This document shows positions 31 through 60,227 of a stretch of DNA of 64,000 bases, in pieces; position 1 is the stretch's first letter; each line of letters begins with the position of its first letter. Both the position numbers and the translations under genes were made by a program. The stretch lies in the IMG/VR virus record IMGVR_UViG_3300009370_000020, positions 1 through 64,000 of that record, one strand, 5' to 3'. Source of the DNA: a virus. A model generated the notes under the pieces. That model saw only the letters and a program-made list of their open reading frames with translations, searched no databases and had not been told where the DNA came from.

Positions 31-1632
31 ATGGCAGTAAATAGTGATATTGTTGCAAACGATTTATTTAAAACAATAAAAGGTTTTAACTTAAATGTTC
101 AACTGTTTAATGAAGACGGAAAACGTGTAATTGATCCTGCTGAAGCAAGAAAATTTTATGCTACAGATAAAAAGTTTATGGTTACATATGAATCCGATGA
201 GGATCCACAAAGCATAAAAGTTTACTTTGGTAAAAATTTTACACTTGACGAAGATAGTGATTTCAATTATAATAAATTTATTAAACAAGTTAGAAATTTA
301 GCTCAACGAAAAAATGCAATAGGATTTACGGTTAAAAATTATGGTAAAGAAATTCAGCCTAAGGATTTTGCATACCAAGCAATTAATAGGAACGCAGATA
401 TGGGAAACATAGCAGAAGGTTTATCACCCGCATACGGGTCGAGTAAATCAAGTTATCAAACATTAGATAACGCAAAATTAGTTATACGGCATAACAAACC
501 AATTGACGAGAATTCAAGAGGATCTCGTGCAAGAAACATTACTGCATTATTTGTAGAAAACGGTGCAGGCGAAAGATTTAAGTATCCTTACAATCATTTA
601 GCGGCCGCTAGAGCAATGACAAGACATGTTGCAGAAGGCGGAACTCCGTATGATAATATAGGTTCATATATTACTAAACTCTCAGAAGAAAGTTTGGGAC
701 TTACAAAATTTATGCGATATTCTAAATCAAATGGTTTAATGAACGAAGATACAGAACCTGTTATTAATGGTATTAAAACCAGATTAAACCAAGTAAGAGA
801 GTCATTAAAGCGTATGTCTACCCATAGAGGCTATGCAAATGTAGTAGAAACATTAGGCGAAACTAAAAAAGAATTGGACGAAGAATTAGTAAATGAACTC
901 AAAGACAAATTTACTGTTATTCGTTTTGATGAAGATATGGAGTCAGTTCTTCCCTATGTCGCTAGAATTGTTTCAGAAATGAATAATGCAAGTAGAATTT
1001 CCGAAACATTTAGTGAATTTAAAGAGGCAGTTAATACGGCAGGAGAAATTCAAGTACAAATGGTAGAAGCAGATCATCCAGAAAATCCTGCTAATTTGGT
1101 GTTTGATAATGTTACAAAAAAGAATCAACATATAATTAGTTATATGTCAGAACATGTTTTAGATGAGAATATTCAAACCCTAATGAAACAAATAGCAATT
1201 GATTATCCAAGATATGACGTGCCAATGAAAAATGAATCATTGGCATTAGTGAAATCTATTATGGAAACCGGACAAACTCCGCAGACTGCACCTCAAGAAC
1301 CTCCAATAGACGAAGCATTCATCGATGAAATTGATGAATCTCTTAGTAAGTACACAACTACTGATATCTTTTTTGAAAAAGGCAATTCAGATTGGAATAA
1401 ATGGTTAAATGACCCAAAGACTTATGGCAAAAAAGGTTATTTAACAAAAACCGATATGCAAAAGAAAAAAGCATCTATTAAGAAAAAAGCATTAGCATCA
1501 CAGGGTGTTTCTGATAATTCCTCTGTTGAAGGAGGCCCAATGCCAGATAACTATGTTCCGACTCTTTATAAAAAAGAAGGCGTCGGTGAAGCAGACGAAG
1601 CAGTATTAAAACTAGCAGGGGTATACAAATGA
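31..1632 (+). CDS. conserved marine T4-like phage protein, probably virion-associated
   Basis: A 533-residue protein of a type I associate with T4-like marine myoviruses; no enzymatic motif is visible. The middle (about residues 160-215) carries the conserved-looking stretch ITALFVENGAGERFKYPYNH followed by a basic segment. The C-terminal 90 residues are lysine-rich. A late element lies 23 nt upstream and the stop overlaps the next start by 4 nt (ATGA), so the two genes are probably translationally coupled. A structural or assembly role is inferred from the late element and neighbours only. Confidence 0.7.
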   Translation: MAVNSDIVANDLFKTIKGFNLNVQLFNEDGKRVIDPAEARKFYATDKKFMVTYESDEDPQSIKVYFGKNFTLDEDSDFNYNKFIKQVRNLAQRKNAIGFTVKNYGKEIQPKDFAYQAINRNADMGNIAEGLSPAYGSSKSSYQTLDNAKLVIRHNKPIDENSRGSRARNITALFVENGAGERFKYPYNHLAAARAMTRHVAEGGTPYDNIGSYITKLSEESLGLTKFMRYSKSNGLMNEDTEPVINGIKTRLNQVRESLKRMSTHRGYANVVETLGETKKELDEELVNELKDKFTVIRFDEDMESVLPYVARIVSEMNNASRISETFSEFKEAVNTAGEIQVQMVEADHPENPANLVFDNVTKKNQHIISYMSEHVLDENIQTLMKQIAIDYPRYDVPMKNESLALVKSIMETGQTPQTAPQEPPIDEAFIDEIDESLSKYTTTDIFFEKGNSDWNKWLNDPKTYGKKGYLTKTDMQKKKASIKKKALASQGVSDNSSVEGGPMPDNYVPTLYKKEGVGEADEAVLKLAGVYK

Positions 1633-2144
1633 TTCCAGATATTAAGAATGAAAATGATTTAAGAAGATTAGCAGGAATTCCTATTAAAGAAGATCCTTTT
1701 GATATTCCGCCCGATGACGACGATGAAGCAGAAGATTGGGGTGTACCAAGTAAACCAAGCGGAAGTTTAGATAATATTATTGCTAAACATAGAGAACCAT
1801 TTGAATCTGTAATGCGAGGCGAATCTGCGTTATACGATCATCAAGAATTTTTTGATGAATTATACGAATACTATGTTAATTCAGGTGAAATGCCATACGG
1901 TATTGCTAAAGCAAGAGATGGCGACCCAGACCAATGGATTCAAGAAGAACTAGATCGTGAATATGGTGATGACTTTGCTACTGATGATGTACCCGATTCA
2001 ATGGATGGGGATTTTGATTCAGGCATGGCTTCGGCTGGTTTTGGTACAGACGAAGACTACGGCTACTATGGTGAAAGCAAAGAACCAAAGACATTCAAAG
2101 AACATTTAAATAAAGTTGTAGCAGAAACGAAGATAAAAAAATGA
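1629..2144 (+). CDS. acidic hypothetical protein
   Basis: A 171-residue, strongly acidic protein (runs of D and E around residues 25-38 and 115-150) with a short basic tail. It starts on an ATGA overlap with the preceding gene. No motif recognised. Probably the partner of the upstream gene. Confidence 0.65.
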   Translation: MIPDIKNENDLRRLAGIPIKEDPFDIPPDDDDEAEDWGVPSKPSGSLDNIIAKHREPFESVMRGESALYDHQEFFDELYEYYVNSGEMPYGIAKARDGDPDQWIQEELDREYGDDFATDDVPDSMDGDFDSGMASAGFGTDEDYGYYGESKEPKTFKEHLNKVVAETKIKK

Positions 2145-2147
2145 TAT

Positions 2148-2843
2148 ATGGTCTCTTATGATATATATGATTTTGAGATAACAACTCATTGTCAAGCAGG
2201 CTGTCCAGCCTGTCCTAGATTTGATATAACATACGACATAGACGGAAAAATTATACCAACGTATAATTTATCATTAAAACCAAAACATATGGAGTTTAAT
2301 GATTTTAAAGAAGTTGTATTAAAAAATGATAATATTTGGGAAAATAAACAGATAAATTTTTGCGGGGAATTTGGTGATCCAATGATTCATCCTAACGTAG
2401 AAAAATTTATTGATATAATTAATTCATCTAGTGCAAAAGAGCTTATTATTAATACTAATGGCGGAATACGAAAACCCGAATTTTATAAACACTTATGTAC
2501 AAATTACGAAAAATTATCATTTATTTTTGGAATAGATGGACTAACAAATAAGACTAATCAATTATATAGACGGCGTGTTAATACAAAAATAGCATTTGAA
2601 AACTTAACAGTGGTTGCTAGTTTTGGTAAAGCAACTTGGAAATATATAATTTTTGATCATAATTATTTTGAAATTGATGATGTAGAAAAATTTAGTAAAA
2701 AATTTAATATTCCTATTATTTTTATAATTAATACTAGAGAATATAATAGAATATCTAAAATTAATTTAGAAAAAATAAAAAAATATAATATAAAAGGAAA
2801 GAAATGGGAGTTCTTTCAACCTCCGATAAAGAATGGAAATTAA
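2148..2843 (+). CDS. radical SAM enzyme, N-terminal core of a split rSAM/SPASM protein
   Basis: Residues C15, C19 and C22 form the CX3CX2C motif that binds the radical SAM [4Fe-4S] cluster. The following GEFGDPMIHP and the INTNGG segment fit the strands and loops that follow this motif in radical SAM barrels. The 231-residue frame ends where a C-terminal cluster domain would normally begin. That domain is encoded in the -1 frame from 2804 and overlaps this frame by 40 nt. Substrate unknown. SPASM-type relatives usually modify peptides or proteins, which is family knowledge and not shown here. Confidence 0.8.
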   Translation: MVSYDIYDFEITTHCQAGCPACPRFDITYDIDGKIIPTYNLSLKPKHMEFNDFKEVVLKNDNIWENKQINFCGEFGDPMIHPNVEKFIDIINSSSAKELIINTNGGIRKPEFYKHLCTNYEKLSFIFGIDGLTNKTNQLYRRRVNTKIAFENLTVVASFGKATWKYIIFDHNYFEIDDVEKFSKKFNIPIIFIINTREYNRISKINLEKIKKYNIKGKKWEFFQPPIKNGN

Positions 2844-3157
2844 AATGCTTTAATTATCATGCTTGGCAAACCGGACAACATGGTGCTGAAAAAATTGTAG
2901 ATAATAAATGGCATGATCTAGATATTACCATAGATTTAAAAGTATTACCTTGTTGTGCCTATCACTCAAAATGTTCTGAAGGTCCAACAGGTGATCCATA
3001 TTTAGATAATTTACCATCGGATTGGAATGATTTAAAAAAGCACACGTTAGAAGAAATACTTAACCATGAAGTATTTACAGAATACCTAACAGATAAGAAT
3101 TGGCAAGATCCAAAAACATGCCCTCCTTTTTGTGCAAGTGTATGTGGATCTAAATAA
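2804..3157 (+). CDS. SPASM-like auxiliary Fe-S domain, C-terminal half of the split radical SAM protein
   Basis: A 117-residue cysteine-rich frame: KCFNYHAW, VLPCCAYHSKC, and CPPFCASVC at the end. This spacing resembles the auxiliary-cluster (SPASM/Twitch) domain that follows a radical SAM barrel. It has its own ATG with an AAGGA ribosome site 5 nt upstream, inside the end of the upstream gene and in the -1 frame. It may be a natural two-gene arrangement with coupled translation, or a one-base indel in the assembly that split one gene. Confidence 0.7.
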   Translation: MGVLSTSDKEWKLKCFNYHAWQTGQHGAEKIVDNKWHDLDITIDLKVLPCCAYHSKCSEGPTGDPYLDNLPSDWNDLKKHTLEEILNHEVFTEYLTDKNWQDPKTCPPFCASVCGSK

Positions 3158-3178: not shown

Positions 3179-3207
3179 TTGACTTTGATAAATAGATTTG
3201 TTATAAT
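3179..3207 (+). promoter_or_regulatory. sigma70-type promoter of gene 32
   Basis: TTGACT (3179-3184), 17 nt, TATAAT (3202-3207). A late-type ATAAATA (3188-3194) sits inside the spacer. Transcription would start near 3214, leaving a leader of about 80 nt before gp32. Confidence 0.8.
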
Positions 3208-3211
3208 AAGT

Positions 3212-3281
3212 TCATGATGTATGTCATGGACACTAGGCTAATAAAAGCAATAGAAAATTTAGGCACATACATAGGCTAATA
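3212..3281 (+). promoter_or_regulatory. gene 32 leader with inverted repeat and 10-bp direct repeat
   Basis: The leader holds a small inverted repeat (CATGA/TCATG, about 3213-3226) and two exact copies of TAGGCTAATA at 3234-3243 and 3272-3281; the second is just before the AGGAG ribosome site. T4 gp32 represses its own translation by binding its leader. A similar role here is an inference. Confidence 0.4.
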
Positions 3282-3294
3282 TAGGAGAAATAAT

Positions 3295-4266
3295 ATGGCT
3301 ACACTAGCAGAAATACGAGCAAAGCTCTTGGAAAAAGAGCAACGTACAGGCGGAAGTTTTCAATCCGACAACGCAATTTACGCATTCTGGAATATCCCAG
3401 AAAATTCAACAGCAACTTTAAGATTTTTACCAGATTCAGATGAAACGAACACGTTCTTTTGGAAAGAGCGTCAAATGATTCGTTTGTCATTTCCTGGTAT
3501 CAAAGGACAGGACGAATCACGTAGTGTTACAGTCCAAGTTCCTTGTGTAGAAATGTGGGGCGATGCATGTCCAGTACATGCTGAAATTCGTCCTTGGTTT
3601 AAAGATCCAAGTCTCGAAGATGAAGGTCGTAAATATTGGAAAAAGCGATCTTATATTTTTCAAGGATTTGTTACTGACAATCCATGGGGTGATGATACTC
3701 CACCAGAAAATCCAATTCGCAGGTTTATTATAAATCCGTCTATTTACAAAATTATTTCGGCGGCATTAATGGATCCTGACTTTCCGGAAATTCCAACTGA
3801 TTTTGAAGCAGGAACTGACTTTAAACTTACAAAAACACAAAAAGGTCAGTATGCTGATTATTCGACTTCAAATTGGGCTCGTAGAGAACGTAGCCTAGAT
3901 CAGACTGAACGAGATGCAATCCAAACACATGGATTGTTTAATCTTAATGATTTTATGCCAAAACGACCAAACAATGATGAGATTAAAATTATCTTTGAAA
4001 TGTTTGAATCATCTGTAGCAGGAGAACTATATGATCCAGAACGTTTTGGTTCGTACTATACTCCCCAAGGTGTTCAGCTGACCAACTTTAACAAATCAGC
4101 ATCTAGCGGCCCGTCGAAGGTTTCTAAAACACCTGAACCAGTTGTTGCAGAAACAACAACAACTCCTACCAAAGAGAAAGTTGAAACTGAAACTGAAACT
4201 GAAGGCGGAGAAAAACCTTCAGCGGATCAAATTCTTAAAATGATTCGTGAGCGAAAAGCTCAATAA
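3295..4266 (+). CDS. 32: single-stranded DNA-binding protein gp32
   Basis: A 323-residue T4 gp32-family protein that coats single-stranded DNA in replication and recombination. The basic N-terminal segment (about residues 1-20) fits the region used for cooperative binding. The core contains ENSTATLRFLPD, aromatic-rich strands and a CX7CX2H set (VPCVEMWGDACPVH) consistent with the zinc site of gp32. The C-terminus is acidic and S/T/E-rich, as expected for the protein-interaction tail. AGGAG precedes the ATG. It has its own promoter and terminator and lies directly before uvsX. Confidence 0.95.
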   Translation: MATLAEIRAKLLEKEQRTGGSFQSDNAIYAFWNIPENSTATLRFLPDSDETNTFFWKERQMIRLSFPGIKGQDESRSVTVQVPCVEMWGDACPVHAEIRPWFKDPSLEDEGRKYWKKRSYIFQGFVTDNPWGDDTPPENPIRRFIINPSIYKIISAALMDPDFPEIPTDFEAGTDFKLTKTQKGQYADYSTSNWARRERSLDQTERDAIQTHGLFNLNDFMPKRPNNDEIKIIFEMFESSVAGELYDPERFGSYYTPQGVQLTNFNKSASSGPSKVSKTPEPVVAETTTTPTKEKVETETETEGGEKPSADQILKMIRERKAQ

Positions 4267-4322: not shown

Positions 4323-5402
4323 ATGAAACCATTTGATATATCAAAATTTAGAAAAAGTATTACAAAAGCAGTTCCAGGAATGTCGAGCGGATTCCACGAC
4401 CCCGTAGATTGGATTAGTACTGGAAATTTAGCACTTAATTTTTTAATTTCAGGAGATTTTAATAGAGGAATACCTCTAGGGAGGGTTACCTGTCTTGCTG
4501 GTGAAAGCGGAAGCGGAAAAAGTTTCATTGCCAGTGGAAACTTAGTGCGTCATGCCCAACAGCAAGGCATCCTCCCTATTGTATTAGATTCAGAAAATGC
4601 TTTAGACTCAGATTGGTTGCAAGCATTAGATGTAGATATTTCAGAAGATAAGTTGTTACGGTTTGGTGTATCAATGATAGATGAAGTTGCAAAATTTATC
4701 AGTGAGTTCATGAAAGGCTACCGCGAACAATATGCAGATGTACCATACGAAGAACGCCAAAAAGTTCTCTTTGTAATAGATTCGCTAGGTATGCTACTTA
4801 CCCCAACTGATAAAGATCAATTTGAAAAAGGAGATATGAAAGGCGACATGGGTCGTAAGCCTAAGGCACTAACGGCCCTTGTTCGCAATAGTGTTAATTT
4901 ACTTGCTGGAAATCCAGTAGGATTAATTGCTACTAATCATACATATGCATCACAAGATATGTTTGATCCAGATGATAAGATTAGTGGTGGGCAAGGATTT
5001 ATATATGCTTCATCTATCGTTGTTGCGATGCGAAAACTAAAACTTAAAGAAGATGAAGAAGGCAATAAAATTACAGACATACGAGGTATTAGAGCGGCTT
5101 GCAAAGTAATGAAAACACGTTTTGCTAAACCATTTGAAAGTGTACAAATTAAAATACCGTATGATACTGGCATGGATCCGTATAGCGGATGTTTAGACTT
5201 ATTCGAAAAAGCAGGTGTAATAGTTAAAGAAGGTAATAAACTAAAGTATACAACTGCCAAGGGTGAAGAAATAAAAGAATTCCGAAAGGGTTGGAATCAT
5301 GAAAACTTACAAAAAGTTATAGATGATTTCAAAGAAAACGATGCTCCTCTGGTAAATAACGATGATGTGGTACCAGAGGAGGTAATCGATGAAGATGAGT
5401 GA
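4323..5402 (+). CDS. uvsX: RecA-like recombinase UvsX
   Basis: A 359-residue strand-exchange ATPase. Walker A is GESGSGKS (residues 60-67), Walker B is LFVIDSLG near residue 150, and an ATNHTY segment and a GGQG loop follow as in UvsX/RecA proteins. The C-terminus is acidic. RBS AGAGGAAA precedes the ATG. It acts with gp32, UvsY and UvsW, which lie nearby in that order. Confidence 0.95.
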   Translation: MKPFDISKFRKSITKAVPGMSSGFHDPVDWISTGNLALNFLISGDFNRGIPLGRVTCLAGESGSGKSFIASGNLVRHAQQQGILPIVLDSENALDSDWLQALDVDISEDKLLRFGVSMIDEVAKFISEFMKGYREQYADVPYEERQKVLFVIDSLGMLLTPTDKDQFEKGDMKGDMGRKPKALTALVRNSVNLLAGNPVGLIATNHTYASQDMFDPDDKISGGQGFIYASSIVVAMRKLKLKEDEEGNKITDIRGIRAACKVMKTRFAKPFESVQIKIPYDTGMDPYSGCLDLFEKAGVIVKEGNKLKYTTAKGEEIKEFRKGWNHENLQKVIDDFKENDAPLVNNDDVVPEEVIDEDE

Positions 5403-7410: not shown

Positions 7411-7439
7411 AAAAAGGAGTTCTTTGAACTCCTTTTTTT
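7411..7439 (+). terminator. rho-independent terminator directly before uvsW
   Basis: Perfect 9-bp stem AAGGAGTTC/GAACTCCTT (7414-7422 with 7426-7434), 3-nt loop, followed by a T run. UvsW begins 9 nt after it, so uvsW mRNA must come from readthrough or a start inside this region. Confidence 0.85.
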
Positions 7440-7447
7440 ATGACCTG

Positions 7448-8899
7448 ATGCCAGAATGTATAATTGAAATAAAAGATGAAGTTAATGTTAAAATCCATGA
7501 CCTTGATCTGGTTACACGACGGCAATTAGAAAAAAAGTTTAAGTATTTTTTACCACATGCATACCATGTACCTGCATATAAATTAGGTAGATGGGATGGT
7601 TGTGTTTCTTTCTTTAGTATGGGCGGTGTTACTTATCTTAATTTATTAGATGATATTATCCCTATACTTAATGAAAAATATGATATTAAACTTAAAGACA
7701 AACGAAAAAATCAAACATTTAATTTTAATGAAGTTACTAGTACAATACATAATAAATTAGCATGGCCTAAAGGACATACACATGAAGGACAAAATATTGT
7801 ACTTAGAGATTATCAAGTTGATGTTATAAATCAGTTTTTAGCAGAACCACAATGCCTGCAGGAGATTGCTACAGGAGCAGGTAAAACGTTAATTACGGCT
7901 ACTTTAAGTTATTCTGTAGAGCAATATGGACGAAGTATAGTCATTGTACCTAATAAAGATCTTGTTACACAAACGGAAGATGACTATAAGAATTTAGGGC
8001 TCGATTGCGGGGTATATTTTGGGGATAGAAAGGATATTGGTAAGAGCCACACTATATGCACCTGGCAGAGCCTTAATTCTATGGACAAGCGATTTAAAGA
8101 TGGAGAGATTGATATAGGTCTTAAAACATTTGTCAAAGGCGTAGTATGCCTTATAGTAGACGAAGTACACATGGCTAAGGCAGATGTACTCCGTAAATTA
8201 TTAACAGGGCCTTTTGCTACAATACCTATACGTTGGGGGCTTACTGGTACTATACCAAAAGAAGATTGGCAATATGCTAGTTTAAAAGTGTCATTAGGCG
8301 ATGTAATAAACAGATTAAGTGCATCAGATTTACAAGAGCAAGAAGTCTTAGCAAACTGCGAAATAAATATAATACAAGTACAGGATATAGTTGCATATCC
8401 AAATTATCAATCCGAACTTACCTACTTAACAACCAACGAAGATAGGATGGACTATCTTTCAGGTTTATTTAAAAATATAGTAAAAGATGGAAATACCTTA
8501 ATTTTAGTAGACCGTATTAAAGCAGGACAAATGCTACAAGAAAGGTTAGGAGATGAGAGCGTATTTATATCTGGATCGGTTAAATCCTCAGACAGACGAG
8601 AACAATATAGCGAAGTTCAAGACTCTGACAACAAAATCATTATTGCTACTTATGGGGTTGCATCTATTGGTATCAATATTCCTCGGATATTCAATTTGGT
8701 CCTCGTCGAACCAGGCAAAAGTTTTGTCAGGGTCATTCAATCAATCGGGCGTGGAATTAGAAAAGCCCAAGATAAAGACTTTGTAAGGGTGTGGGATATT
8801 ACATCTTCAGCAAAGTTTAGTAAGCGACATCTAACCAAACGTAAAAAGTTTTACACGGATGCTAAGTATCCTTTTACAATAGAAAAAGTTACAATATGA
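7448..8899 (+). CDS. uvsW: UvsW DNA/RNA helicase
   Basis: A 483-residue superfamily 2 helicase. Motif I is ATGAGKT (residues 141-147), motif II is DEVH (238-241), motif III is LTGT, and motif VI is QSIGRGIRK near the C-terminus. The first 100 residues fit the N-terminal double-strand-binding region of UvsW. UvsW unwinds R-loops and branched DNA in T4. An in-frame TTG at 7424 lies inside the terminator, so ATG 7448 is preferred; no clear ribosome site is present. It overlaps the next gene by 4 nt. Confidence 0.92.
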   Translation: MPECIIEIKDEVNVKIHDLDLVTRRQLEKKFKYFLPHAYHVPAYKLGRWDGCVSFFSMGGVTYLNLLDDIIPILNEKYDIKLKDKRKNQTFNFNEVTSTIHNKLAWPKGHTHEGQNIVLRDYQVDVINQFLAEPQCLQEIATGAGKTLITATLSYSVEQYGRSIVIVPNKDLVTQTEDDYKNLGLDCGVYFGDRKDIGKSHTICTWQSLNSMDKRFKDGEIDIGLKTFVKGVVCLIVDEVHMAKADVLRKLLTGPFATIPIRWGLTGTIPKEDWQYASLKVSLGDVINRLSASDLQEQEVLANCEINIIQVQDIVAYPNYQSELTYLTTNEDRMDYLSGLFKNIVKDGNTLILVDRIKAGQMLQERLGDESVFISGSVKSSDRREQYSEVQDSDNKIIIATYGVASIGINIPRIFNLVLVEPGKSFVRVIQSIGRGIRKAQDKDFVRVWDITSSAKFSKRHLTKRKKFYTDAKYPFTIEKVTI

Positions 8900-14834: not shown

Positions 14835-15904
14835 GAATATTTGGAGATTATCATTCTTTTTGTACAGGTTACGAAGCAATGAAATTAATGTGGGATGTAA
14901 CCATGCATTCAGAAAATACTAAAGTAGTAAATGATACTATTATAAAAGATGACGACGAAGACGATAAAGGTTGGGAAAGATTATTAGCAGAAAAATTTGA
15001 ATTAATAAATTTTGAAGTTACACCTTGTTCTAGTAATAAAGATATTTTAGATAAACTAGTTTTATCATTGCAAAGTAATAAACCAAAAGATTTATATATC
15101 GTCCAAACTACAACTTGGTATATGACACGATTTGGTATTGTTGATCATGAGACTTTTAAATATAAAACTAGACATAATATTACATATAATTTACCTGATG
15201 CTCGTAGTTTTCTTGGAAAACGATATCAGACAGCAACGGTCCCATGGTATCCTGATTATGTTTTTAATAAAATACCATTTACTCCCGGTGGACCAGAAGG
15301 AGATATATCAACACCTAGATGGATTCATCAAACAGATGCTGATTTTTCTATAGATCAATCTGGTTTATTTGAATCATGTTTTAGTAGTTGTATTGATCAT
15401 ATCGAAATTCCAGCATTAATAGAAGGACTAGACGATGCTCATAGAATGAGAGCAATTTATGGTGAGTTAGGCAAAGTACTTTTGCATGATCATTTAGGTT
15501 CACAAGCAAGGCAAGAAGAAGCATTTGCAGAAATGATTTTATTAAATCTATTAAGTCAACTATATAATGTTTGGTATTTTCATTGGTTTCCGCCATTAGG
15601 TAGAGTTGAAGATTTTAATTATATGGAAGATCCCCATCCAACAGGTAATCCTATTGCAGATTTTAGACGGCAAAATAGAAAAGATACTATAGGATTAAAT
15701 TATGCAAAATTAGAAACAAAAAATACTGATAAAAGAATTCATCCATTTAGTGCAATGGATTGGATGATAATGACATATAGAGATAAAATACATAATGAAT
15801 TGAATTGGCAAACAGAAGAAGTGCATCATTTAATTTTTAATGAATATATTTCTTCAAATGATACATTAATGGACATATTAAAAAAAGGAAAGGTAAATGG
15901 CTGA
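14825..15904 (+). CDS. SGNH-hydrolase-like protein 2, degenerate paralogue
   Basis: A 359-residue paralogue of the preceding gene: it shares VGIFG..HSF at the start, SSNKDIL, YIVQTTTWY and an IHNELNW-EVHHLIFNEYI tail. The block I serine context is altered (GDYHSFCTG) and the GGG before NKD is lost, so it may be inactive or have changed function. The overlaps with both neighbours are 8-10 nt. The pair looks like a duplication. Confidence 0.6.
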   Translation: MEVGIFGDYHSFCTGYEAMKLMWDVTMHSENTKVVNDTIIKDDDEDDKGWERLLAEKFELINFEVTPCSSNKDILDKLVLSLQSNKPKDLYIVQTTTWYMTRFGIVDHETFKYKTRHNITYNLPDARSFLGKRYQTATVPWYPDYVFNKIPFTPGGPEGDISTPRWIHQTDADFSIDQSGLFESCFSSCIDHIEIPALIEGLDDAHRMRAIYGELGKVLLHDHLGSQARQEEAFAEMILLNLLSQLYNVWYFHWFPPLGRVEDFNYMEDPHPTGNPIADFRRQNRKDTIGLNYAKLETKNTDKRIHPFSAMDWMIMTYRDKIHNELNWQTEEVHHLIFNEYISSNDTLMDILKKGKVNG

Positions 15905-17288
15905 AGAAGTAAAAGAATATACAGAAGATATGCAAAAACTTTATGTAGAGTTTTTATTATCAGATTCTGAATTGTATGCTAGATGCCAAGCAATTTTAGA
16001 TGCAGAATACTTTGATAGAAAATTTAGAAAAAGTGTAAAATTTATACAAGAACATGTGTCGGGGTATTCTGCATTACCTACACCAGAACAAATTAAAGCA
16101 GAAGCAGGAATAGAATTTACATTAGTTAAAGATGTCGACGAACGACATCAAGATTGGTTTTTAGATGATTTTGAACAATTTTGTAAACATAAAGCATTAG
16201 CAAATGCAATTCTTGGTTCAACGGATTTATTGGAAGAAAATCAATTTGGAGCAGTAGAAAAAATAATTAAAGATGCTGTCCAAGTTAGTTTAGCAAAAAA
16301 TTTAGGTACAGATTATTATGTTGATCCTGGCGATAGATTGCGTAATTTAAAAACATTAAATGGCGGAACAAGTACTGGTTGGGAATCAATGGATGCTAAA
16401 TTATTTGGCGGATTTAATAAGGGCGAACTTAATATATTTGCAGGAGGTAGTGGCGCAGGTAAAAGTATATTCTTACAAAATCTTGCAGTTAATTGGTCGT
16501 TAATGAAATTAAATGTTGTGTATGTTAGTTTGGAACTAAGTGAAAATTTGACTGCTATGCGAATGGATGCAATGAACACTGGTTATTCTACAAAGGAATT
16601 ATATAAAAATTTAGATGATGTAGATTTACGTGTTAAAATGCAAAAGAAAAAAGCAGGAGCAATTCAAATAGTACAATTAGTAAGTGGATGTACAGTGAAC
16701 GATATACGAGCATATTTAAAAGAATATACAGTACAAACTGGTATACGACCTGATGCTATAGTAATAGATTATTTAGATTTAATGATGCCTGCACAAAAGA
16801 AAGTACCTCCGAGTGATTTGTTTATTAAAGATAAGTTTGTTAGTGAGGAACTTAGAAATTTAGCAGTAGAATTAGATTTATTATTTGCAACCGCATCTCA
16901 ATTAAACAGAGGAGCAGTAGATGAAATAGAATTTGATCATTCGCATATTGCAGGTGGACTTAGTAAGATACAAACAGCAGATAATGTTATTGGTATATTC
17001 AGTTCTCGAGCAATGCGAGAGCGTGGACGAATACAAATACAATTTATGAAAACTAGATCTAGTAGTGGTGTAGGACAAAAAATAGATTTAGAATTTGATG
17101 GTAGTACATTACGAATATCAGATTTACCTGAAGGAGAAGAAGTAAGCCCAACAGAAGATATATATGCTACACTTAAAAAGAAATCAACTCTTTCAAAAGT
17201 TAAATCTGGATTAACAGAAAATCAGGTAGTCGAAGATACTGTAGATCATAGTGATAGACTAAGAAATATGTTAAAAGGCATGGAATGA
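15897..17288 (+). CDS. 41: replicative DNA helicase gp41
   Basis: A 463-residue DnaB-family helicase. Walker A is GGSGAGKS (residues 183-190), Walker B is IVIDYLDLM, and the ATASQLNRG segment with the arginine-finger region follows. It unwinds the fork and works with gp61. It starts inside the preceding SGNH-like gene and ends on a 4-nt overlap with the next. Confidence 0.95.
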   Translation: MAEEVKEYTEDMQKLYVEFLLSDSELYARCQAILDAEYFDRKFRKSVKFIQEHVSGYSALPTPEQIKAEAGIEFTLVKDVDERHQDWFLDDFEQFCKHKALANAILGSTDLLEENQFGAVEKIIKDAVQVSLAKNLGTDYYVDPGDRLRNLKTLNGGTSTGWESMDAKLFGGFNKGELNIFAGGSGAGKSIFLQNLAVNWSLMKLNVVYVSLELSENLTAMRMDAMNTGYSTKELYKNLDDVDLRVKMQKKKAGAIQIVQLVSGCTVNDIRAYLKEYTVQTGIRPDAIVIDYLDLMMPAQKKVPPSDLFIKDKFVSEELRNLAVELDLLFATASQLNRGAVDEIEFDHSHIAGGLSKIQTADNVIGIFSSRAMRERGRIQIQFMKTRSSSGVGQKIDLEFDGSTLRISDLPEGEEVSPTEDIYATLKKKSTLSKVKSGLTENQVVEDTVDHSDRLRNMLKGME

Positions 17289-26562: not shown

Positions 26563-28902
26563 ATGAAGAAACCAACCTTTTTTCCGAATGTCAGGTCATT
26601 TCATCCTGGTATGGGACAAGCCGTTGCCGAACGAACAGTATTAAGAAAAAAACCAAACGGAGAATGGGAAACATGGCATGATGTTGCTAATAGAGTAGCA
26701 ATGGGTAATAGTTTGTTATGCCCTAAAGAAGAAGATAAAGATAGAGAATTTAGATTATTAAAAAAACATATAGCAAAAGCAAGTCTGTTAATGAGTGGCA
26801 GACACTTACAACATGGTGATGAAAAACAGCCAGAACGAAATATGGAAGTGTTTACAAATTGTGCTACATCAAGCACAAGTTTTATACTTTTTTATTTACT
26901 GTTAAACGGATCAGGGGTTGGACGATGTTATGATGATGACATGATGTTGGTTGATTGGAATAATGCACCCCAATTACGATGTGTATTAGACGAAAGTCAT
27001 CCAGATTTTGATTATTCAGCACATACATCATTGCGAGATGGAAAACACAAATACGGTCAAGGAGAAAATACTCTTTGGTATGAAATTCCAGATAGTAGAG
27101 AAGGATGGGCCCAGGCATTAGAAATTTGGGAAAATGCCGCTTTTGAAAAAATTCATAAAGATAAAATGCTTGTATTAGATTTTAGTAAAGTACGAGCAAA
27201 AGGAACACCCATTGGGGGGATGCAGAATAGACCAGCAAGTGGTCCTGTATCTTTATTAAATGCCTTTGAAAAATGTGCAACTATTAAAGATGCTGGCATG
27301 GAGCCATGGCGACAGTCGATGTATGTAGATCATTACATGGCTGAATGTGTACTTGTAGGAGGCGCTCGACGGGCCGCTAGGATGAGTACTAAAACATGGA
27401 AGGATAAAACTGTATTGAATTTTATTACAGTTAAAAGACCTATTGAATATATTGGATTAAACATGGAAGATATAGTTCAATATAATAAAGATTCTGCGTA
27501 TCCTCCAATGGGCTTTTTATGGTCAAGTAATAATTCTGTTACTACAGATAAAGATTTTTGGAATAGGCTTAATGTAAAACGTGGTGATGCCAAATATAAT
27601 GATGACTTAACAAAACATGCTAGAGCTGTGTTTAAACTGCTTACAGAAGCCGCTTATGCTGATGGTACAGGCGAACCAGGCATACTTAACTCTGATATGT
27701 TAGTACAAAACGACGAAGGATGGGATGACTTAAATCGTGGTGATTATGTCGGTAGTCCTAAGTACCAACTTAGAGAAGATACACAAATATTAATGAGTCG
27801 TCTTGCGAAACGTGCAAAGAAAAAGAAGTTTCATACAATTACAAATCCGTGTGGAGAAATTGCATTAAATGTATTAGGCGGATTTTGTGTTATTGCAGAC
27901 GTAGTACCTTATCATGCAGACACATTAGATGAAGCAGAGGAGGCTTTCCGTGTTGCTACGAGGGCTTTATTGCGTGTAAACGGCATGAATAGCATATATG
28001 GTAAAGAAGTAGAACGTACAAATAGGATAGGAGTAGGATTAACAGGTGTGCAAGAGTTTGCCTGGAAATTTTTTAAATTAGGATTTAGAGATTTAATAAA
28101 TGAAGAAAAATCTAAAGATTTTTGGATGGCAATGGCACGTTTTAATAGAGCTGTCAAAGACGAAGCAAAAAAATATTCTGCTTATTTAGGACAAACAATT
28201 CCTCATACAATGACTACCATTAAACCTGCCGGAACTACAAGTAAATTATTTGGTCTTACTGAAGGTTGGCATTTACCAGCATTAGCATGGTATATGCGAT
28301 GGGTACAGTTTAGAAATGACGATCCATTGGTAGAGCAATATAAGAAAAATGGTTATCCTACAAAAGAATTAGTACAGTATAGTGGAACTACTATTGTAGG
28401 GTTTCCGACAGAACCAGTTATTGCTGGATTAGGTTTGGAAGAAAATCTTGTTACAGCAGGTGAAGCAACACCGCAAGAACAATATCAATGGTTAAAGTTA
28501 GGGGAAAAATATTGGATTCAAGGTGTCAATGAAGATGGGACTTTAGCAGAAGATGTTGGCAATCAAATTAGTTATACTCTTAAGTATGTACCTGAAATTG
28601 TAGATTATAAGCATTTTAAAGATATGATTAAACAGCACCAATCTACTGTAAGAGCATGTTCTGTAATGCCACAAGCAGATATTTCTGCATATGAATATCA
28701 ACCAGAAGAAGCAGTTTCTAAATTTAAATATGAAGAAATTAGCAGAGCAATTGCAGTTGCAATGACAGAAGATATAGGTAGAGAACATGTTGATTGTGGT
28801 GTAGCACCAGGTGGATGTCCTATTGATTTTGATGAAGAACAAAAAGAATGGGCATTAGAAGAAGAAGATCCTAAGACAACATTATTAAAAGAAGTTGCAT
28901 GA
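26563..28902 (+). CDS. nrdJ: class II (adenosylcobalamin-dependent) ribonucleoside triphosphate reductase
   Basis: A 779-residue monomeric class II reductase. NCATSS gives active-site C100, NPCGE gives the radical-site C430 with N428 and E432, and C442 follows in GGFC; the C-terminal pair C745/C752 (CGVAPGGC) would pass electrons. KPAGTTSKLFG is the conserved late motif. It makes dNTPs from NTPs using vitamin B12. ATG 26563 has a CGAGGAG site; the frame is open upstream to 26470. A glutaredoxin gene overlaps its end by 4 nt. Confidence 0.9.
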   Translation: MKKPTFFPNVRSFHPGMGQAVAERTVLRKKPNGEWETWHDVANRVAMGNSLLCPKEEDKDREFRLLKKHIAKASLLMSGRHLQHGDEKQPERNMEVFTNCATSSTSFILFYLLLNGSGVGRCYDDDMMLVDWNNAPQLRCVLDESHPDFDYSAHTSLRDGKHKYGQGENTLWYEIPDSREGWAQALEIWENAAFEKIHKDKMLVLDFSKVRAKGTPIGGMQNRPASGPVSLLNAFEKCATIKDAGMEPWRQSMYVDHYMAECVLVGGARRAARMSTKTWKDKTVLNFITVKRPIEYIGLNMEDIVQYNKDSAYPPMGFLWSSNNSVTTDKDFWNRLNVKRGDAKYNDDLTKHARAVFKLLTEAAYADGTGEPGILNSDMLVQNDEGWDDLNRGDYVGSPKYQLREDTQILMSRLAKRAKKKKFHTITNPCGEIALNVLGGFCVIADVVPYHADTLDEAEEAFRVATRALLRVNGMNSIYGKEVERTNRIGVGLTGVQEFAWKFFKLGFRDLINEEKSKDFWMAMARFNRAVKDEAKKYSAYLGQTIPHTMTTIKPAGTTSKLFGLTEGWHLPALAWYMRWVQFRNDDPLVEQYKKNGYPTKELVQYSGTTIVGFPTEPVIAGLGLEENLVTAGEATPQEQYQWLKLGEKYWIQGVNEDGTLAEDVGNQISYTLKYVPEIVDYKHFKDMIKQHQSTVRACSVMPQADISAYEYQPEEAVSKFKYEEISRAIAVAMTEDIGREHVDCGVAPGGCPIDFDEEQKEWALEEEDPKTTLLKEVA

Positions 28903-29174
28903 ATGTAACAATTTACACTATTGATAATTGTAAATTATGTGACCATGCAAAAATAATAATGGAAGAACGAGGAGTCGAATATGATGAAATTCGTATTGGC
29001 ATAGATATACCAAAAAAAGAATTTAAAGAAAAACACAATGCAGATAAGGCTCCGCTTGTTTATTATGGTAATTGGCGGGTAGGCGGAGCCAATGAATTAT
29101 GGAAAGCAATTTATAGAACAAATTTAATTCCTGTAAAAATATCCGCTGTCGATCAACTCCTAAAAAACAAATAA
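28899..29174 (+). CDS. glutaredoxin 1
   Basis: A 91-residue glutaredoxin with CKLC at residues 11-14 and the KAPLVYYGNWRVGGANEL cis-Pro and glutathione-site region. The 4-nt overlap with nrdJ makes it the likely electron donor for the reductase. Confidence 0.85.
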   Translation: MNVTIYTIDNCKLCDHAKIIMEERGVEYDEIRIGIDIPKKEFKEKHNADKAPLVYYGNWRVGGANELWKAIYRTNLIPVKISAVDQLLKNK

Positions 29175-38514: not shown

Positions 38515-39730
38515 AAACTTTATCTGTAGTTTTTGTAATAAAACTCGAGAAGAAGTTAAAAAATTAATTCAAGGTCCTGACAACGGCGCTTTTATATGCG
38601 ACGAATGTATTAAACTTTCCTTTGATATTATTAGTGAAGAAGAAAGTGAAATTAATGAACATTATGTTTACACCCCACAAGCAATTTACGACCATTTAAA
38701 TGAATTTGTCATTGGTCAACACGAAGCAAAAAAAGTCTTATCAGTAGCAGTATATAATCATTATAAACGAATTAATCATATAGCATCAGACATAGAATTG
38801 GATAAATCTAATGTACTGTTATTAGGTCCGTCTGGCTGTGGTAAAACATTAATGGCAAGTACAGTAGCAAAAATATTAGATGTGCCATTTGCAATAGCCG
38901 ATGCAACTACAGTAACAGAAGCAGGATATGTAGGCGATGATGTAGAAAATTTAATAACTAAACTATTGCATAATGCAGAATATGATATTGATAGGGCAGA
39001 AAAAGGTATTGTATATGTTGATGAAATAGATAAAAAAGGACGAAAATCTGAATCTGCAAGTATTACGAGAGATGTAAGCGGCGAAGGAGTCCAACAAGCA
39101 TTGTTAAAAATGATAGAAGGCACCGAAGTTCGTGTACCCCCAGCAGGTGGAAGAAAGCATCCTCAATCTGAAATAGTAGAAGTTGATACTAAAAACATAT
39201 TGTTTATATTAGGAGGAGCATTTATAGATTTAGAAAAGCATATTAAAAAACGATTAAACAAAACAAAATCGATAGGATTTGGAGCAATAATAGATGAACA
39301 ACAAGATGACACAAATTATTTTAATCGAGTAGAACCAGACGATTTAGTTGAGTATGGCATGATACCTGAATTAGTAGGTAGAGTACCTGTACGTGTAGGT
39401 TTAAAAGAACTTACAAAAAAACAGTTAATACAAGTATTACAAGAACCTAAAAATAGCATTATTAAACAATTTAAACGAATATTTGAAATGGATAATGTTA
39501 AATTAGAATTTACAGATAAAGCATGTGAAGAAATAGTTAAAATTTGTAATGATACAAAAGTCGGCGCAAGAGGATTGCGATCAGTTATAGAAAATGCATT
39601 ATTAGATGTGCAATTTAACTTACCAACATACGAAAAGAAAGGCATAGAAAAGGTAGTTATAAATGAAGACACGATCACGAAACAACAGGAACCATTCCTC
39701 GTTTACGGGAAAAAACAACAGACGAAGTAA
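38498..39730 (+). CDS. clpX: ATP-dependent Clp protease ATP-binding subunit ClpX
   Basis: A full-length 410-residue ClpX. The zinc-binding domain has C10/C13 and C34/C37. Walker A is GPSGCGKT (110-117), the GYVG pore loop is at 143-146, Walker B DE at 175-176, [11 protein letters not shown] follows, and sensor 2 ARGLR is at 357-361. The IGF loop (259-261) that docks on ClpP is present, so it should be able to use host ClpP; no clpP is in the window. ClpX unfolds ssrA-tagged proteins. IF-3 starts within its last 68 nt. Confidence 0.95.
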
Positions 39731-40211
39731 TTATATAAGCCACCCTATGTTACGGCTTATAGATGAAAAGGGCGAACAATTGGGAGTTATGGAGACTAGA
39801 AAAGCCATATCAATTGCTCGTGAACGGGAATTAGAGGTTGTAGTTGTATCTGAAAAAGCAGATCCACCGGTTGCAAAAATTGTGGATTTAAATAAATACG
39901 TATATAAAGAACAACAAAGGAAGAAAGCTCTAGCAAAAAATGCTCGTGCAACTCGGACTGAGTTAAAAGAAATGCAATTTAGACCAAAAATTGATAACCA
40001 TGATTTTGAAGTTAAAGCAAACAAAATTAAAAAGTTTTTAGATAAAGGTGATCAAGTAAAAATTGTAGTTCGATTTAAAGGTCGCGAACGGTATATATAC
40101 AAAGAGCACGGATTAGAACTTTTTGAACGATTATCGAAAAGTTTGAAAACAGATTTCCTTTCAGAGCCTAAATTTGTCGGTTCAAGTATCGTAGCAATTT
40201 TAAAATGTTAA
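39663..40211 (+). CDS. infC: translation initiation factor IF-3
   Basis: A 182-residue protein with both IF-3 domains: [20 protein letters not shown] and [19 protein letters not shown] in the N-domain, a lysine-rich linker, and [25 protein letters not shown] plus [11 protein letters not shown] in the C-domain. IF-3 controls start-codon choice and keeps the 30S subunit free. The N-terminus aligns upstream of the internal Met at 39747, so I keep the start at 39663 inside clpX. Confidence 0.92.
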
Positions 40212-40417
40212 CAATTGAAGTAAGAAATAATAATGCAGAAAAAGCAATTAAATTATTAAAGAAAAAAATTAATGCCGAAGGCACGTTAAAAGAATGTAGG
40301 GACCGACAATCCTATGAAAAACCGTCAAAGAAAAGGCGCAGACTTAAAGCTCAAGCAATTCGTCGTATAGAACGAAACTTGGAAAAATTATATGAAGGTA
40401 GAATAAAAAATTATTGA
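40205..40417 (+). CDS. rpsU: ribosomal protein bS21
   Basis: A 70-residue bS21 of normal length: IEVRNNNAEKAIKLLKKKI, then YEKPSKKRRRLKAQAIRRIERN. bS21 sits near the anti-Shine-Dalgarno end of 16S rRNA and affects initiation. bS21 genes have been reported in pelagiphages and other marine phages. It overlaps IF-3 by 7 nt. Confidence 0.93.
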   Translation: MLTIEVRNNNAEKAIKLLKKKINAEGTLKECRDRQSYEKPSKKRRRLKAQAIRRIERNLEKLYEGRIKNY

Positions 40418-44667: not shown

Positions 44668-46245
44668 ATGAAAGATATAAAAGTAAAAGATATTGTTATT
44701 ATAGGTGGCGGAACCTCTGGGTGGATGGCCGCACTATTCTTACTAAAAAGAAAAGAATATAATATAACAGTAATAGAATCAAAAAAGATATCCACCATAG
44801 GAGTAGGTGAAAGTACTCAACCATCGGTTTCTGCTTTTTTCGAATTCGCAGGATATAATCAAACAGACTGGATGCCAAAATGTAAGGCAACTTATAAATC
44901 GGGAGTAATGTTTGACGGATGGAATCCTGATAATCAATTTTTAGTCGATAGTGAATCGGCAGTATTTAGTATACTAGATACAACAGAATATGATTCGTAT
45001 GGTACACATGATGCCGCAATAGCAACAGGCATGACTGCAAAAGATTGGTCTAATTGGTTTCCTTCATATCGATTAGCAATAAACAATAAATCACCTAAAA
45101 TGGGTAAGGAGCGATTTAATTATCTTAATGGTCATTCTACTCCTCCGCCTAATGCAGTACAATGGGACAATATTGCAGTAATAGATTTTTTAAAACAAGA
45201 ATGTATAAAACTTGGTGTAACACATGTCGTTGATAGTGTCGTAGATGCAAATTTAGATCAAGAAGGATATGTAAAAGAGTTAATTTTAGAAGATAGAATG
45301 GAAAATCTTTCAGGTGATATTTTTGTAGATTGTTCGGGATTTAATTCTGTTTTATTTGATCTTATATATCAATGCCAATGGCATTCGGTACAGGAGATTT
45401 TACCTACAAATAATGCTATAGCGATAAGAAAAAAATATACCAATCCCCAAAAAGAATGTCATCCTTATACCAAATCTACTGCAATGACTTCGGGCTGGAT
45501 GTGGACAATACCTACCTATGATGATTTAGCCTATGGATATGTTTACAGTGACAAATATATAGATAAAGATGATGCAGAAAAAGAAATACGAACAAAAATA
45601 AATGATTGGGATTCGCCAGCATTACATATACCATTTAAAGCAGGAACACGAGAAACAATATCCATTAAAAATGTATATGCTGTTGGGCTTTCTGCAGGAT
45701 TTTTAGAACCATTAGAAGCAACAAATTTAGCATTTACAGTAATTGCAATAGGTAATTTAGCCAAGTTATTATATGAAACACAAAATATGTATAATGAGGC
45801 TATGGGATCGCATATAAGTCGAATGTTTAGTATACAAGTAGATGAAATGGTAGATTTTATATATATGCATTATAGAATGGCGCCAAAAAATGATACACAA
45901 TTTTGGAAAGAAATAAAAGAAAGACCAATACCAGATAAAATAATGCCTATGTATAATGCAATAAAAGATGGGCCTTTATCCCAAACTATGTTTTATGATA
46001 TGCAAATGAAAGACATGCCAGGTTTTAGATATGTTGAAGCAAATTCTCCTATATTTGCTTCTGGTCATTGGTGGCAATTATTAAAAGGATTTGGTCATTA
46101 CGAAAATATTAAAAGATCATATAGTGATGATTTTATACAGTATAGTAAAATGGTATTAGATGTTCATAAACATAGAATGGACAATGTAATAAAAACTTTT
46201 CCTAACCATTATGATTTTCTAACAGAATGGTACGAATCAATTTGA
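44668..46245 (+). CDS. flavin-dependent tryptophan-halogenase-family protein 1
   Basis: A 525-residue protein with FAD motif GGGTSGWMAA near the N-terminus, GVGESTQPS, DWMPKCKATYK placing K77 where halogenases have the catalytic Lys, GWMWTIP matching the WxWxIP signature, and GFLEPLEAT at the position of the catalytic Glu region. All hallmarks of the PrnA/RebH/VirX1 type are present, so it is likely to make HOCl or HOBr and halogenate an unknown substrate. It needs reduced FAD from a reductase, none of which is obvious here. Confidence 0.9.
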   Translation: MKDIKVKDIVIIGGGTSGWMAALFLLKRKEYNITVIESKKISTIGVGESTQPSVSAFFEFAGYNQTDWMPKCKATYKSGVMFDGWNPDNQFLVDSESAVFSILDTTEYDSYGTHDAAIATGMTAKDWSNWFPSYRLAINNKSPKMGKERFNYLNGHSTPPPNAVQWDNIAVIDFLKQECIKLGVTHVVDSVVDANLDQEGYVKELILEDRMENLSGDIFVDCSGFNSVLFDLIYQCQWHSVQEILPTNNAIAIRKKYTNPQKECHPYTKSTAMTSGWMWTIPTYDDLAYGYVYSDKYIDKDDAEKEIRTKINDWDSPALHIPFKAGTRETISIKNVYAVGLSAGFLEPLEATNLAFTVIAIGNLAKLLYETQNMYNEAMGSHISRMFSIQVDEMVDFIYMHYRMAPKNDTQFWKEIKERPIPDKIMPMYNAIKDGPLSQTMFYDMQMKDMPGFRYVEANSPIFASGHWWQLLKGFGHYENIKRSYSDDFIQYSKMVLDVHKHRMDNVIKTFPNHYDFLTEWYESI

Positions 46246-49655: not shown

Positions 49656-50039
49656 ATGGCATACAGCGAAAATGTATTGGAGCATTATAATGAACCTAAA
49701 AATGTTGGCAGTCTGGATGGGAGCGATAACAATGTCGGTACTGGCTTGGTGGGTGCTCCTGAGTGTGGCGATGTTATGAAACTGCAAATTAAAGTAGGCG
49801 ACAATAATGAGATTATTGATGCTAAATTCAAAACATTCGGATGTGGTTCGGCAATTGCTTCTTCGAGTTTAGCCACAGAATGGATTAAAGGTAAATCCAT
49901 AGAAGAAGCAGATAGTATTAAAAATGTAGACATTGTTGAAGAGTTATCTTTACCTCCTGTAAAGATTCATTGTTCGGTACTAGCCGAAGACGCAATTAAA
50001 TCAGCAATACAAGATTATAAAAACAAACAAAAAAGGTAA
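49656..50039 (+). CDS. iscU: IscU-type Fe-S cluster scaffold
   Basis: A 127-residue scaffold protein. The three cluster cysteines are in place: GAPECGDV, FKTFGCGSAIASSS and KIHCSVLAEDAI, together with the Asp after the first Cys. IscU assembles [2Fe-2S]/[4Fe-4S] clusters using sulfur from IscS, which must be the host's. An AAGGA site precedes the ATG. Two A-type carrier genes follow within 1 kb. Confidence 0.93.
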   Translation: MAYSENVLEHYNEPKNVGSLDGSDNNVGTGLVGAPECGDVMKLQIKVGDNNEIIDAKFKTFGCGSAIASSSLATEWIKGKSIEEADSIKNVDIVEELSLPPVKIHCSVLAEDAIKSAIQDYKNKQKR

Positions 50040-50367: not shown

Positions 50368-50718
50368 ATGCCTCAAAAATTTTGGCACGCCGGCAGAAAA
50401 GGAAAACATCTAGGATGGGATGATATTTCTGCCATGAATATTGAAGAATTACTAACACATCTTAAAGAATGGTACGGAGTAACGGATATAAAACCCATGA
50501 GAGATATTACACATGTTAATAGACCTCCGTGGAGTTTACCCGGTGATCCTTATATTCGTAATGCGTTAGAATGTTGGACTGATGGTTCTGATGAATATGG
50601 AAAACTCCAACGAAGAGATGAAGGAACATATTATCATCTTTCGACTATGATAAAACGAAAAGATGTTATCCAATTATTAACTGAAACCGCCGATGGAGAT
50701 TCTCCCCCAACATGGTAA
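50368..50718 (+). CDS. hypothetical protein
   Basis: A 116-residue Trp-rich protein (FWHAGRKGKHLGWDD, LKEWYGV) with a helical C-terminus. It overlaps the first A-type carrier by 7 nt. No family recognised. Confidence 0.6.
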   Translation: MPQKFWHAGRKGKHLGWDDISAMNIEELLTHLKEWYGVTDIKPMRDITHVNRPPWSLPGDPYIRNALECWTDGSDEYGKLQRRDEGTYYHLSTMIKRKDVIQLLTETADGDSPPTW

Positions 50719-51080
50719 CATTTACAAAACGAGCTGTAAAAGTAATATCAAATATAATGAATGAGCAAAAAGTTGGCGACGACACAAGAGTACGAGTAGG
50801 CGTCAAAGGCGGAGGGTGTTCTGGTTTTACCTATACAGTAGATTTTGATAGTAGAAAAGGCAAATTTGATTTAGAATTTGAGTCATTCGGACTTAACATT
50901 TTAGTAGATAAAAAAAGCCACATATATATTAAAGATACAGAAGTAGACTGGTCAAATGATTTAAATGATCGTGGTCTGAAATTTAATAATCCCTCAGCAA
51001 AAGGTTCCTGTGGTTGCAGGACATCATTTATGTATGAACATAAGGAAAAAGAAGATGGATACAAACCAAGTTGGATGTGA
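50712..51080 (+). CDS. A-type Fe-S carrier 1 (IscA/SufA/ErpA family)
   Basis: A 122-residue protein with VKGGGCSGFTYTVDF and GSCGCRTSF, giving the three cysteines (C...CxC) of A-type carriers. It transfers clusters from IscU to target enzymes. It overlaps the second carrier by 26 nt. Confidence 0.92.
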   Translation: MVTFTKRAVKVISNIMNEQKVGDDTRVRVGVKGGGCSGFTYTVDFDSRKGKFDLEFESFGLNILVDKKSHIYIKDTEVDWSNDLNDRGLKFNNPSAKGSCGCRTSFMYEHKEKEDGYKPSWM

Positions 51081-51459
51081 GCTTAAAATAACAGAAAAGG
51101 CCGCTGTAGAATTTAAACAAATGTGTATCGATGAAGATAAACATTGGGCAGATTCATATTTAAGAGTAGGAGCAAATTCAGGCGGATGTTCTGGTTGGAA
51201 GTATAGTTTAGATTATGAAGATACAGTAGATCCTACTGACTTGATTTTTGAACAATATGGTGTTAAACTAGTAGTAGACGAATACATTCTTAATGATATT
51301 ATTGGGGATGTTGAAGTCGATTATAAAGTTGGCAATCTAGTAGAACAAGGATTTATATTTAAACGATTAAAATATGAACATGTTTGTGGTTGTGGAGAAA
51401 GTTTTACACCAGTAAAAGATATACCAGCAGACGGACAAATGCCAGGCCTAGGATGGTAA
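51055..51459 (+). CDS. A-type Fe-S carrier 2, divergent paralogue
   Basis: A 134-residue A-type carrier with ANSGGCSGWKYSLDY and VCGCGESF, keeping the three cysteines, plus a C-terminal tail (VKDIPADGQMPGLGW). The ATG at 51055 with AAGGA upstream is preferred; the frame is open from GTG 51010. Two distinct A-type carriers suggest different targets. Confidence 0.9.
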   Translation: MDTNQVGCELKITEKAAVEFKQMCIDEDKHWADSYLRVGANSGGCSGWKYSLDYEDTVDPTDLIFEQYGVKLVVDEYILNDIIGDVEVDYKVGNLVEQGFIFKRLKYEHVCGCGESFTPVKDIPADGQMPGLGW

Positions 51460-59676: not shown

Positions 59677-60227
59677 TGGAAACATTAAGATGTACTATTA
59701 AAGATATAGTAAGTAAATTAATTAATAAAGAAATAGGTGCTATTTTTCAAGGTAAATTAGAATTAGGACCTAGAGCATTAGGTAATAGATCTATTATTGC
59801 TGATCCTAGAATGGAAGATGGTAAAGATAGAGTTAATGAAGTTAAAAATAGAGAATGGTACAGACCATTTGCATGTAGTATATTAGAAGAATATGCACAC
59901 GAATGGTTTGAAATGGGTAGACTTAAATCCTCGCCTTTTATGAGTTATGCTGTTCCAGTAAAGGAAGACAAATGGGAAAAAATACCAGCAGTGATACATG
60001 TTGACGGTACTTGTAGATTGCAAACTGTTAATAGGGATCAAAATCCTTTATACTATGATTTAATTAATGAATTTTATAATCAGACTAGTATACCTTTAAT
60101 ACTCAATACTAGTTTTAATCTAGCCGGTCAACCAATTGTGTTTAACCCTGCAAAAGCAATTGAGGTTTTTTTAGATAGTAAATTAGATTTTGTTTGGTTT
60201 CCTGAAATAGAAAAGGCAGTAGTATGA
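59676..60227 (+). CDS. carbamoyltransferase C-terminal domain as a separate gene
   Basis: A 183-residue protein matching the C-terminal domain of NodU/CmcH/TobZ carbamoyltransferases: FQGKLELGPRALGNRSIIAD, NREWYRPFACSIL, and ILNTSFNLAGQPIVFNPAKA. In known enzymes this is the C-terminal (YrdC-like) half of one chain; here it is a separate upstream gene followed by the N-terminal half. Confidence 0.88.
   Translation: METLRCTIKDIVSKLINKEIGAIFQGKLELGPRALGNRSIIADPRMEDGKDRVNEVKNREWYRPFACSILEEYAHEWFEMGRLKSSPFMSYAVPVKEDKWEKIPAVIHVDGTCRLQTVNRDQNPLYYDLINEFYNQTSIPLILNTSFNLAGQPIVFNPAKAIEVFLDSKLDFVWFPEIEKAVV

Follow-up and report, generated by a model that had tools for sequence, protein, structure and literature searches.

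A phage radical SAM enzyme probably encoded as two subunits, with its SPASM-like auxiliary domain on a separate overlapping gene

We identified two overlapping genes, A and B, in a 64,000-nucleotide stretch of viral DNA (the window; positions 1 to 64,000 of IMG/VR record IMGVR_UViG_3300009370_000020). We conclude that their products are very probably the subunits of a single radical SAM enzyme, in which the auxiliary Fe-S domain would be a separate, co-translated subunit. The argument is carried by the split itself, its conservation, the varied relative frames, the co-variation of A with B and their obligate neighbourhood, all read from the sequences. To our knowledge, the known SPASM and twitch enzymes hold the core and the auxiliary cluster on one chain. 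A single chain hampers asking what the auxiliary cluster does, whereas a natural separate subunit permits it to be omitted, titrated, loaded separately or swapped. A-B pairs are common in marine phage contigs.

The virus record comprises 66,097 bases with T4-like replication genes, and the window holds a UvsX-like recombinase (4323-5402), a DNA helicase (7424-8899) and a DnaB-like helicase (15897-17288). By eye, two further genes (39663-40211 and 40205-40417) resemble translation initiation factor IF-3 and ribosomal protein bS21. Relatives were collected as loci L001-L210, which are viral contigs from two single-protein and three profile scans, plus one locus of the window's own record. Profiles made from split cores and from stand-alone B proteins were searched against all ORFs of these loci.

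Both genes lie on the plus strand. ORF A, the putative radical SAM core subunit, occupies 2148..2843 (231 aa) and has a CxxxCxxC motif at residues 15-22 as well as a CGEFGDPMIHP motif. ORF B (2804..3157, 117 aa) is the candidate stand-alone SPASM/twitch-like auxiliary Fe-S subunit. The preliminary description of this DNA placed a radical SAM core and a SPASM-like part in different frames with a 40-nt overlap, and an AAGGA ahead of the second ATG. Both observations are exact: the overlap covers 2804..2843 (plus strand) with B in the -1 frame relative to A, and the Shine-Dalgarno-like AAGGA sits at 2794..2798 (plus strand), spaced 5 nt from the B ATG at 2804. Upstream, a virion-structural-like gene (31-1632) lies just before the pair region, and an unknown 171-aa ORF (1629..2144, plus strand) has its stop 3 nt ahead of the A ATG; by position, this ORF is a member of a tightly packed gene run with A and B. 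Downstream of the pair is a gene for a gp32-like single-strand DNA binding protein (3295..4266, plus strand; PHROG 1192, E 4.3e-64). Inspection by eye of positions 3179-3294, 5' of the gp32-like gene, revealed a TTGACT-TATAAT promoter-like pair and a leader with repeated GGCTAATA. This promoter-like pair and leader are kept in the related locus L003, unlike a 21-aa ORF in the same interval.

Against Pfam Radical_SAM (PF04055), ORF A scores E 2.9e-6 and 28.0 bits, under the cut-off of 29.5, and against a profile of the family alignment it scores E 3.9e-69. Its CxxxCxxC reads HCQAGCPACPR, with 14 residues ahead of the first cluster Cys, and the motif is present in 87/87 core ORFs. A PF04055 profile search of the window's record gave no match, although the family profile recovered both A and B. 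PHROGs yielded no useful match for A (E 0.4) or B (E 0.048), and the NCBIfam matches to A, including tetraether synthase, QueE and BlsE, were all far under cut-off.

ORF B matches Pfam SPASM (PF13186) with E 2.8e-4 and 21.6 bits, barely over the cut-off of 21.5, and the family profile with E 1.4e-25; the B protein of L012 reaches 23.1 bits against the same Pfam model, and several other B proteins fall under its cut-off. Across 84 B ORFs, which are 86-149 aa long from stop to stop (median 121), five Cys columns are conserved (84/84, 84/84, 83/84, 83/83 and 83/83), in the order single Cys, then CC, then Cx3C. The classical SPASM domain carries a seven-Cys motif for two auxiliary clusters. The earlier label of B as a SPASM-like Cys-rich part is corrected to this extent, that five cysteines are conserved instead of the classical seven. 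Five would be enough for one auxiliary cluster, and 'twitch-like', after the truncated form of SPASM that holds a single auxiliary cluster, may be a better label for B.

The preliminary description had offered two alternatives, an enzyme naturally in two parts or a base missing from the assembly. Only the first survives comparison with relatives: dozens of related phages carry the same split, pointing to a genuine two-part design and not a sequencing error, and the split is repeated in 70 distinct pairs that use all three relative frames. Nor are the homologues always fused, as the missing-base alternative would have it; the close clade is always split, and fusion appears only in a more distant one. 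L001 shows 0 differences from the window across 1600 bases around the pair, and A and B of L002 are identical to those of the window. In L003 and L011, which come from another metagenome and are ~90% identical to the window, the frame break, the ATG and the AAGGA are all preserved, and L003 has the same 40-nt overlap. Comparison of the window with L003 outside the overlap gave a dN/dS of 0.19 over 106 codons of A and of 0.10 over 103 codons of B, indicating that both genes are held by purifying selection. The fusion of the more distant homologues is what one might expect of a sequencing or assembly indel, or of a recently broken gene. We regard such an origin as extremely improbable, given that independent contigs agree, the ~90% identical relative among them, that selection acts on both halves, that the split is clade-wide with varied frames, and that a split pair also occurs in the cultured phage Mosig.

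Among the 70 distinct adjacent A-B pairs in viral contigs, B lies in the +1 frame relative to A in 34, in the -1 frame in 34 and in frame 0 in 2; once near-copies are removed, 57 pairs remain, with 30 in -1, 25 in +1 and 2 in frame 0. With the starts as chosen, 65 of the 70 B ORFs begin no later than the A stop, most commonly with a 4-nt overlap (offset -4, 17 pairs), and 40/70 have an SD-like 4-mer 5' of the B start. Since all three frames are found, the conserved unit is a coupled gene pair and not a frameshift site.

Programmed -1 frameshifting in the overlap could still be imagined to yield a fused A-B protein in the window, besides or in place of separate subunits: B sits in the -1 frame there, the A-AAG tetranucleotide at 2828-2831 could slip, and positions 2819-2871 are identical between the window and L003. 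As a general mechanism it is ruled out by the distribution of B over +1, -1 and 0. B precedes A in four contigs (L162-L165), the A stop TAA in L071 is followed immediately by the ATG of B, B retains its own ATG and SD-like site, and a slip at the A-run 2777-2783 would hit a stop in the frame of B. We therefore consider frameshifting very unlikely and favour separate translation of two subunits.

Gene order varies widely around the pair. Counting all 210 loci, same-contig duplicates included, A B alone is found in 70, A A B B in 21 and A B A B A B in 7. Two cores are fused in one ORF in L067 and L068, each with its CxxxCxxC intact, together with a single B. B is ahead of A in L162-L165 and also in L055. 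In L200, L201 and L205-L207, an A B pair precedes a single ORF in which B is fused ahead of the core, a permuted fusion of which there are two distinct forms; these fusions (L200:5944-6870 and L205:5901-6950, for example) lie directly 3' of an ordinary split pair. The core of L166/L182 carries an N-terminal 2OG-oxygenase-like domain (PF13640, E 1e-4, under cut-off). A long N-terminal extension is present on the core-only ORFs L166:4323-5708 and L017:3649-4989.

These arrangements raise a bolder proposal, that in this phage lineage the auxiliary Fe-S module of radical SAM enzymes has turned into a free and exchangeable subunit, with cores and SPASM subunits stacked, interleaved, permuted and perhaps shared. 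The loci with two fused cores and one B suggest that one SPASM subunit could serve two cores. We think this proposal rather unlikely; if true, phages could mix cores and auxiliary subunits for new chemistry.

The two genes are tightly linked. No stand-alone B ORF lacks a core-only A inside 1 kb (0/167, duplicates included), and the core-only A ORFs without B (18/185) are all at ends of the fetched DNA. The identity matrices of A and B correlate with r 0.76 over 48 pairs, a value reached by 0 of 2000 permutations. B does have its own start, and the A-B complex is a prediction, so one might suppose that the two proteins work apart in different roles, with B acting as an independent Fe-S carrier that merely shares a transcript with A. 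This is very improbable in our view, because none of the 167 B ORFs occurs without an A, A and B co-vary, B and A are joined in the permuted B-A fusion in two distinct forms, and a joined chain from L194 yields a docking model (below).

In three simpler loci (L173, L194 and L162), an A1-like core is joined with a B2-like partner, which suggests a nested pairing in the AABB loci, A1 with B2 and A2 with B1. The A and B of the window lean clearly to neither AABB type (A 0.37 and 0.36; B 0.31 and 0.33).

In a phylogeny of 105 cores, one branch (SH-aLRT 88) separates 37 of the 38 split cores from all 63 fused or long-tailed cores. One short core, that of L055, falls on the split side, and the split pair of L099 (L099:7436-8370) is placed among the fused enzymes. 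A larger tree, with 136 rows, groups 71 of the 72 split or permuted rows together with support 48, and a set of 65 split rows that includes the window has support 96. Based on these supports, a single old origin is likely for the main split clade, as distinct from the divergent Mosig/L055 branch. The position of L099 implies that the split can also arise separately, and L099 may mark an independent second event of this kind.

As the joined pair for modelling we took L194, a relative that falls near the window in the tree and whose B is in frame 0, and read through its two TAA codons; a frame-0 pair was chosen so that the joined chain needs no base change. The alignment had 123 rows (L194 itself, 45 fused, 39 core-only and 38 B-only). 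The AlphaFold model has pLDDT 92.0 and pTM 0.90, and the only run of residues under 50 is where the two parts were artificially joined (239-242). It aligns with SuiB over its whole length (model 1-351; Z 21.4, rmsd 3.6 A, 280 residues), and with SkfB (Z 20.1), anSME (19.3) and BlsE (19.0). Together with the CxxxCxxC, this resemblance to radical SAM structures (Z up to 21.4) places the joined protein in the radical SAM superfamily, which is marked by a CxxxCxxC cluster motif within a partial TIM barrel. The full-length matches suggest that a separate B can occupy the place of a fused SPASM domain, a result that the fused rows of the alignment favour and that is support rather than proof. The permuted fusion of L200 was modelled with pLDDT 88 and pTM 0.85, and its structural alignment is mainly to the core (model about 91-308).

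We propose that A, with its SAM-binding [4Fe-4S] core, would start the radical chemistry through a 5'-deoxyadenosyl radical. Translation of B would begin at a start codon of its own, within A or where A ends, so that coupled translation makes both proteins together, and, as modelled, B would dock on A at the usual SPASM position and supply the auxiliary cluster. In known relatives, the auxiliary cluster binds substrate or passes electrons. The window encodes an IscU/NifU_N protein (49656-50039, E 1.1e-51) and, near it, two A-type Fe-S carriers (50712-51080 and 51010-51459), which fits a demand for Fe-S loading that these phage-encoded proteins may serve. Phages that carry radical SAM genes along with IscU or carriers are among those described earlier in PMC5332604.

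With regard to the substrate, our guess, held somewhat short of even confidence, is a small molecule or glycan precursor ahead of a peptide or protein. A peptide or protein maturase, which would be compatible with the two-subunit reading, is a less probable though real candidate. Among the best fold matches are SuiB, SkfB and anSME, whose substrates are peptides or proteins, but fold likeness by itself shows no substrate. No leader-binding (RRE/PqqD-like) domain is present, and the match to SuiB starts at SuiB residue 107; such a domain is not required by every peptide maturase. The only small ORF after B, of 21 aa (3214-3279), was rejected as a peptide substrate beside the pair because it is not conserved in L003. 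Moreover, the best sequence match among solved structures is BlsE, a small-molecule enzyme (E 2.7e-9 against the family profile).

The neighbours of related pairs also speak against a maturase. They include a DegT aminotransferase and a carbamoyltransferase near the Mosig pair, and a nucleotidyltransferase near the L075 pair (E 1.4e-14). An amidinotransferase-like gene, a name weakly supported by profiles, occurs in 7 of 26 sequences, which comprise the window plus 25 split loci. These neighbours appear to fit small-molecule or glycan chemistry at least as well as peptide or protein modification.

Other genes of the window, all non-adjacent to the pair, encode three tryptophan-halogenase-like proteins, a carbamoyltransferase, a GT9-like protein and 2OG oxygenases. 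The tryptophan-halogenase-like flavoproteins (PF04820) are at 44668-46245 (E 2e-93), 51479-53134 (E 5e-103) and 57209-58843 (E 4e-85). The carbamoyltransferase of the window is likewise two overlapping genes (59676-60227 and 60224-61387), the gene for the C-terminal domain (Carbam_trans_C, E 7e-62) coming before that for the N-terminal one (Carbam_trans_N, E 4.5e-23); that of Mosig is a single 501-aa ORF. Two glutaredoxins are encoded at 28899-29174 and 61380-61631.

A tblastn search of 50,697 phage records with the window A returned a single weak match, to Pelagibacter phage Mosig EXVC030M, and neither the window B nor the A1 of L079 had a match in these records. The core of L042 as query recovered five phage records, Campylobacter phages and Mosig among them. 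In Mosig, the gene Mosig_00084 encodes a 211-aa core and overlaps by 8 nt with Mosig_00085, which encodes a 112-aa protein with a similar Cys pattern (E 8e-6 against the B profile). The Mosig pair thus resembles that of the window in having a core-only ORF followed by a SPASM-like ORF, but belongs to a divergent branch and has gone unrecognised as a pair: its record lists Mosig_00084 as 'putative molybdenum cofactor biosynthesis enzyme' and Mosig_00085 as 'hypothetical protein', an example of annotation pipelines overlooking the second half. When 84,980 genomes of cellular species were scanned by pattern twice, the 31 and 76 matches included no core relative; as the patterns were restrictive, this is weak evidence of absence.

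In the open-access literature searched, we found no description of a stand-alone SPASM subunit. The nearest precedent, by name, is GeoRSP, in which a radical SAM protein is accompanied by a SPASM protein of its own (NCBIfam TIGR04303, GeoRSP_rSAM; TIGR04304, GeoRSP_SPASM); we found no related paper in the same literature. The GeoRSP_SPASM model has 293 positions and GeoRSP_rSAM 325, in contrast to the much shorter B ORFs here (86-149 aa). Neither model has a match in the window's record, and the window B and five other B proteins gave no GeoRSP match at E up to 10.

Another phage radical SAM family with a SPASM-like domain, N_Twi_rSAM (NCBIfam NF033640), differs in being one chain with the auxiliary domain N-terminal. 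One member adjoins a split pair (L012:4273-5772; 411 bits against a cut-off of 170); at that 170-bit threshold the window A is not among the matches, and the A1 of L079 scores 32 bits. For Campylobacter phages CP220 and CPt10, PMC2853527 describes many radical SAM genes with an amidinotransferase-like gene. In the fetched region of CP220, three ORFs of 326-346 aa match the core profile, and no stand-alone B was found.

Among enzymes of solved structure, SuiB, SkfB and anSMEcpe (PDB 5v1s, 6efn and 4k37) place the core and auxiliary domain as in the joined model. They are, however, single chains, whereas in the window pair the auxiliary domain has its own gene, the conserved Cys number five instead of seven, and a leader-binding domain is absent. 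The twitch-type and related enzymes BlsE, BtrN, MoaA and viperin similarly have a core and then a small C-terminal region, but are single chains and share no sequence family above cut-off with the pair. While a SPASM domain is by definition fused C-terminal to its core, B has an ORF to itself in the window, as it does in 70 distinct pairs. The split pair would thus work like a SPASM or twitch radical SAM enzyme, yet it appears to depart from two of the features that define one, the fusion and the seven cysteines.
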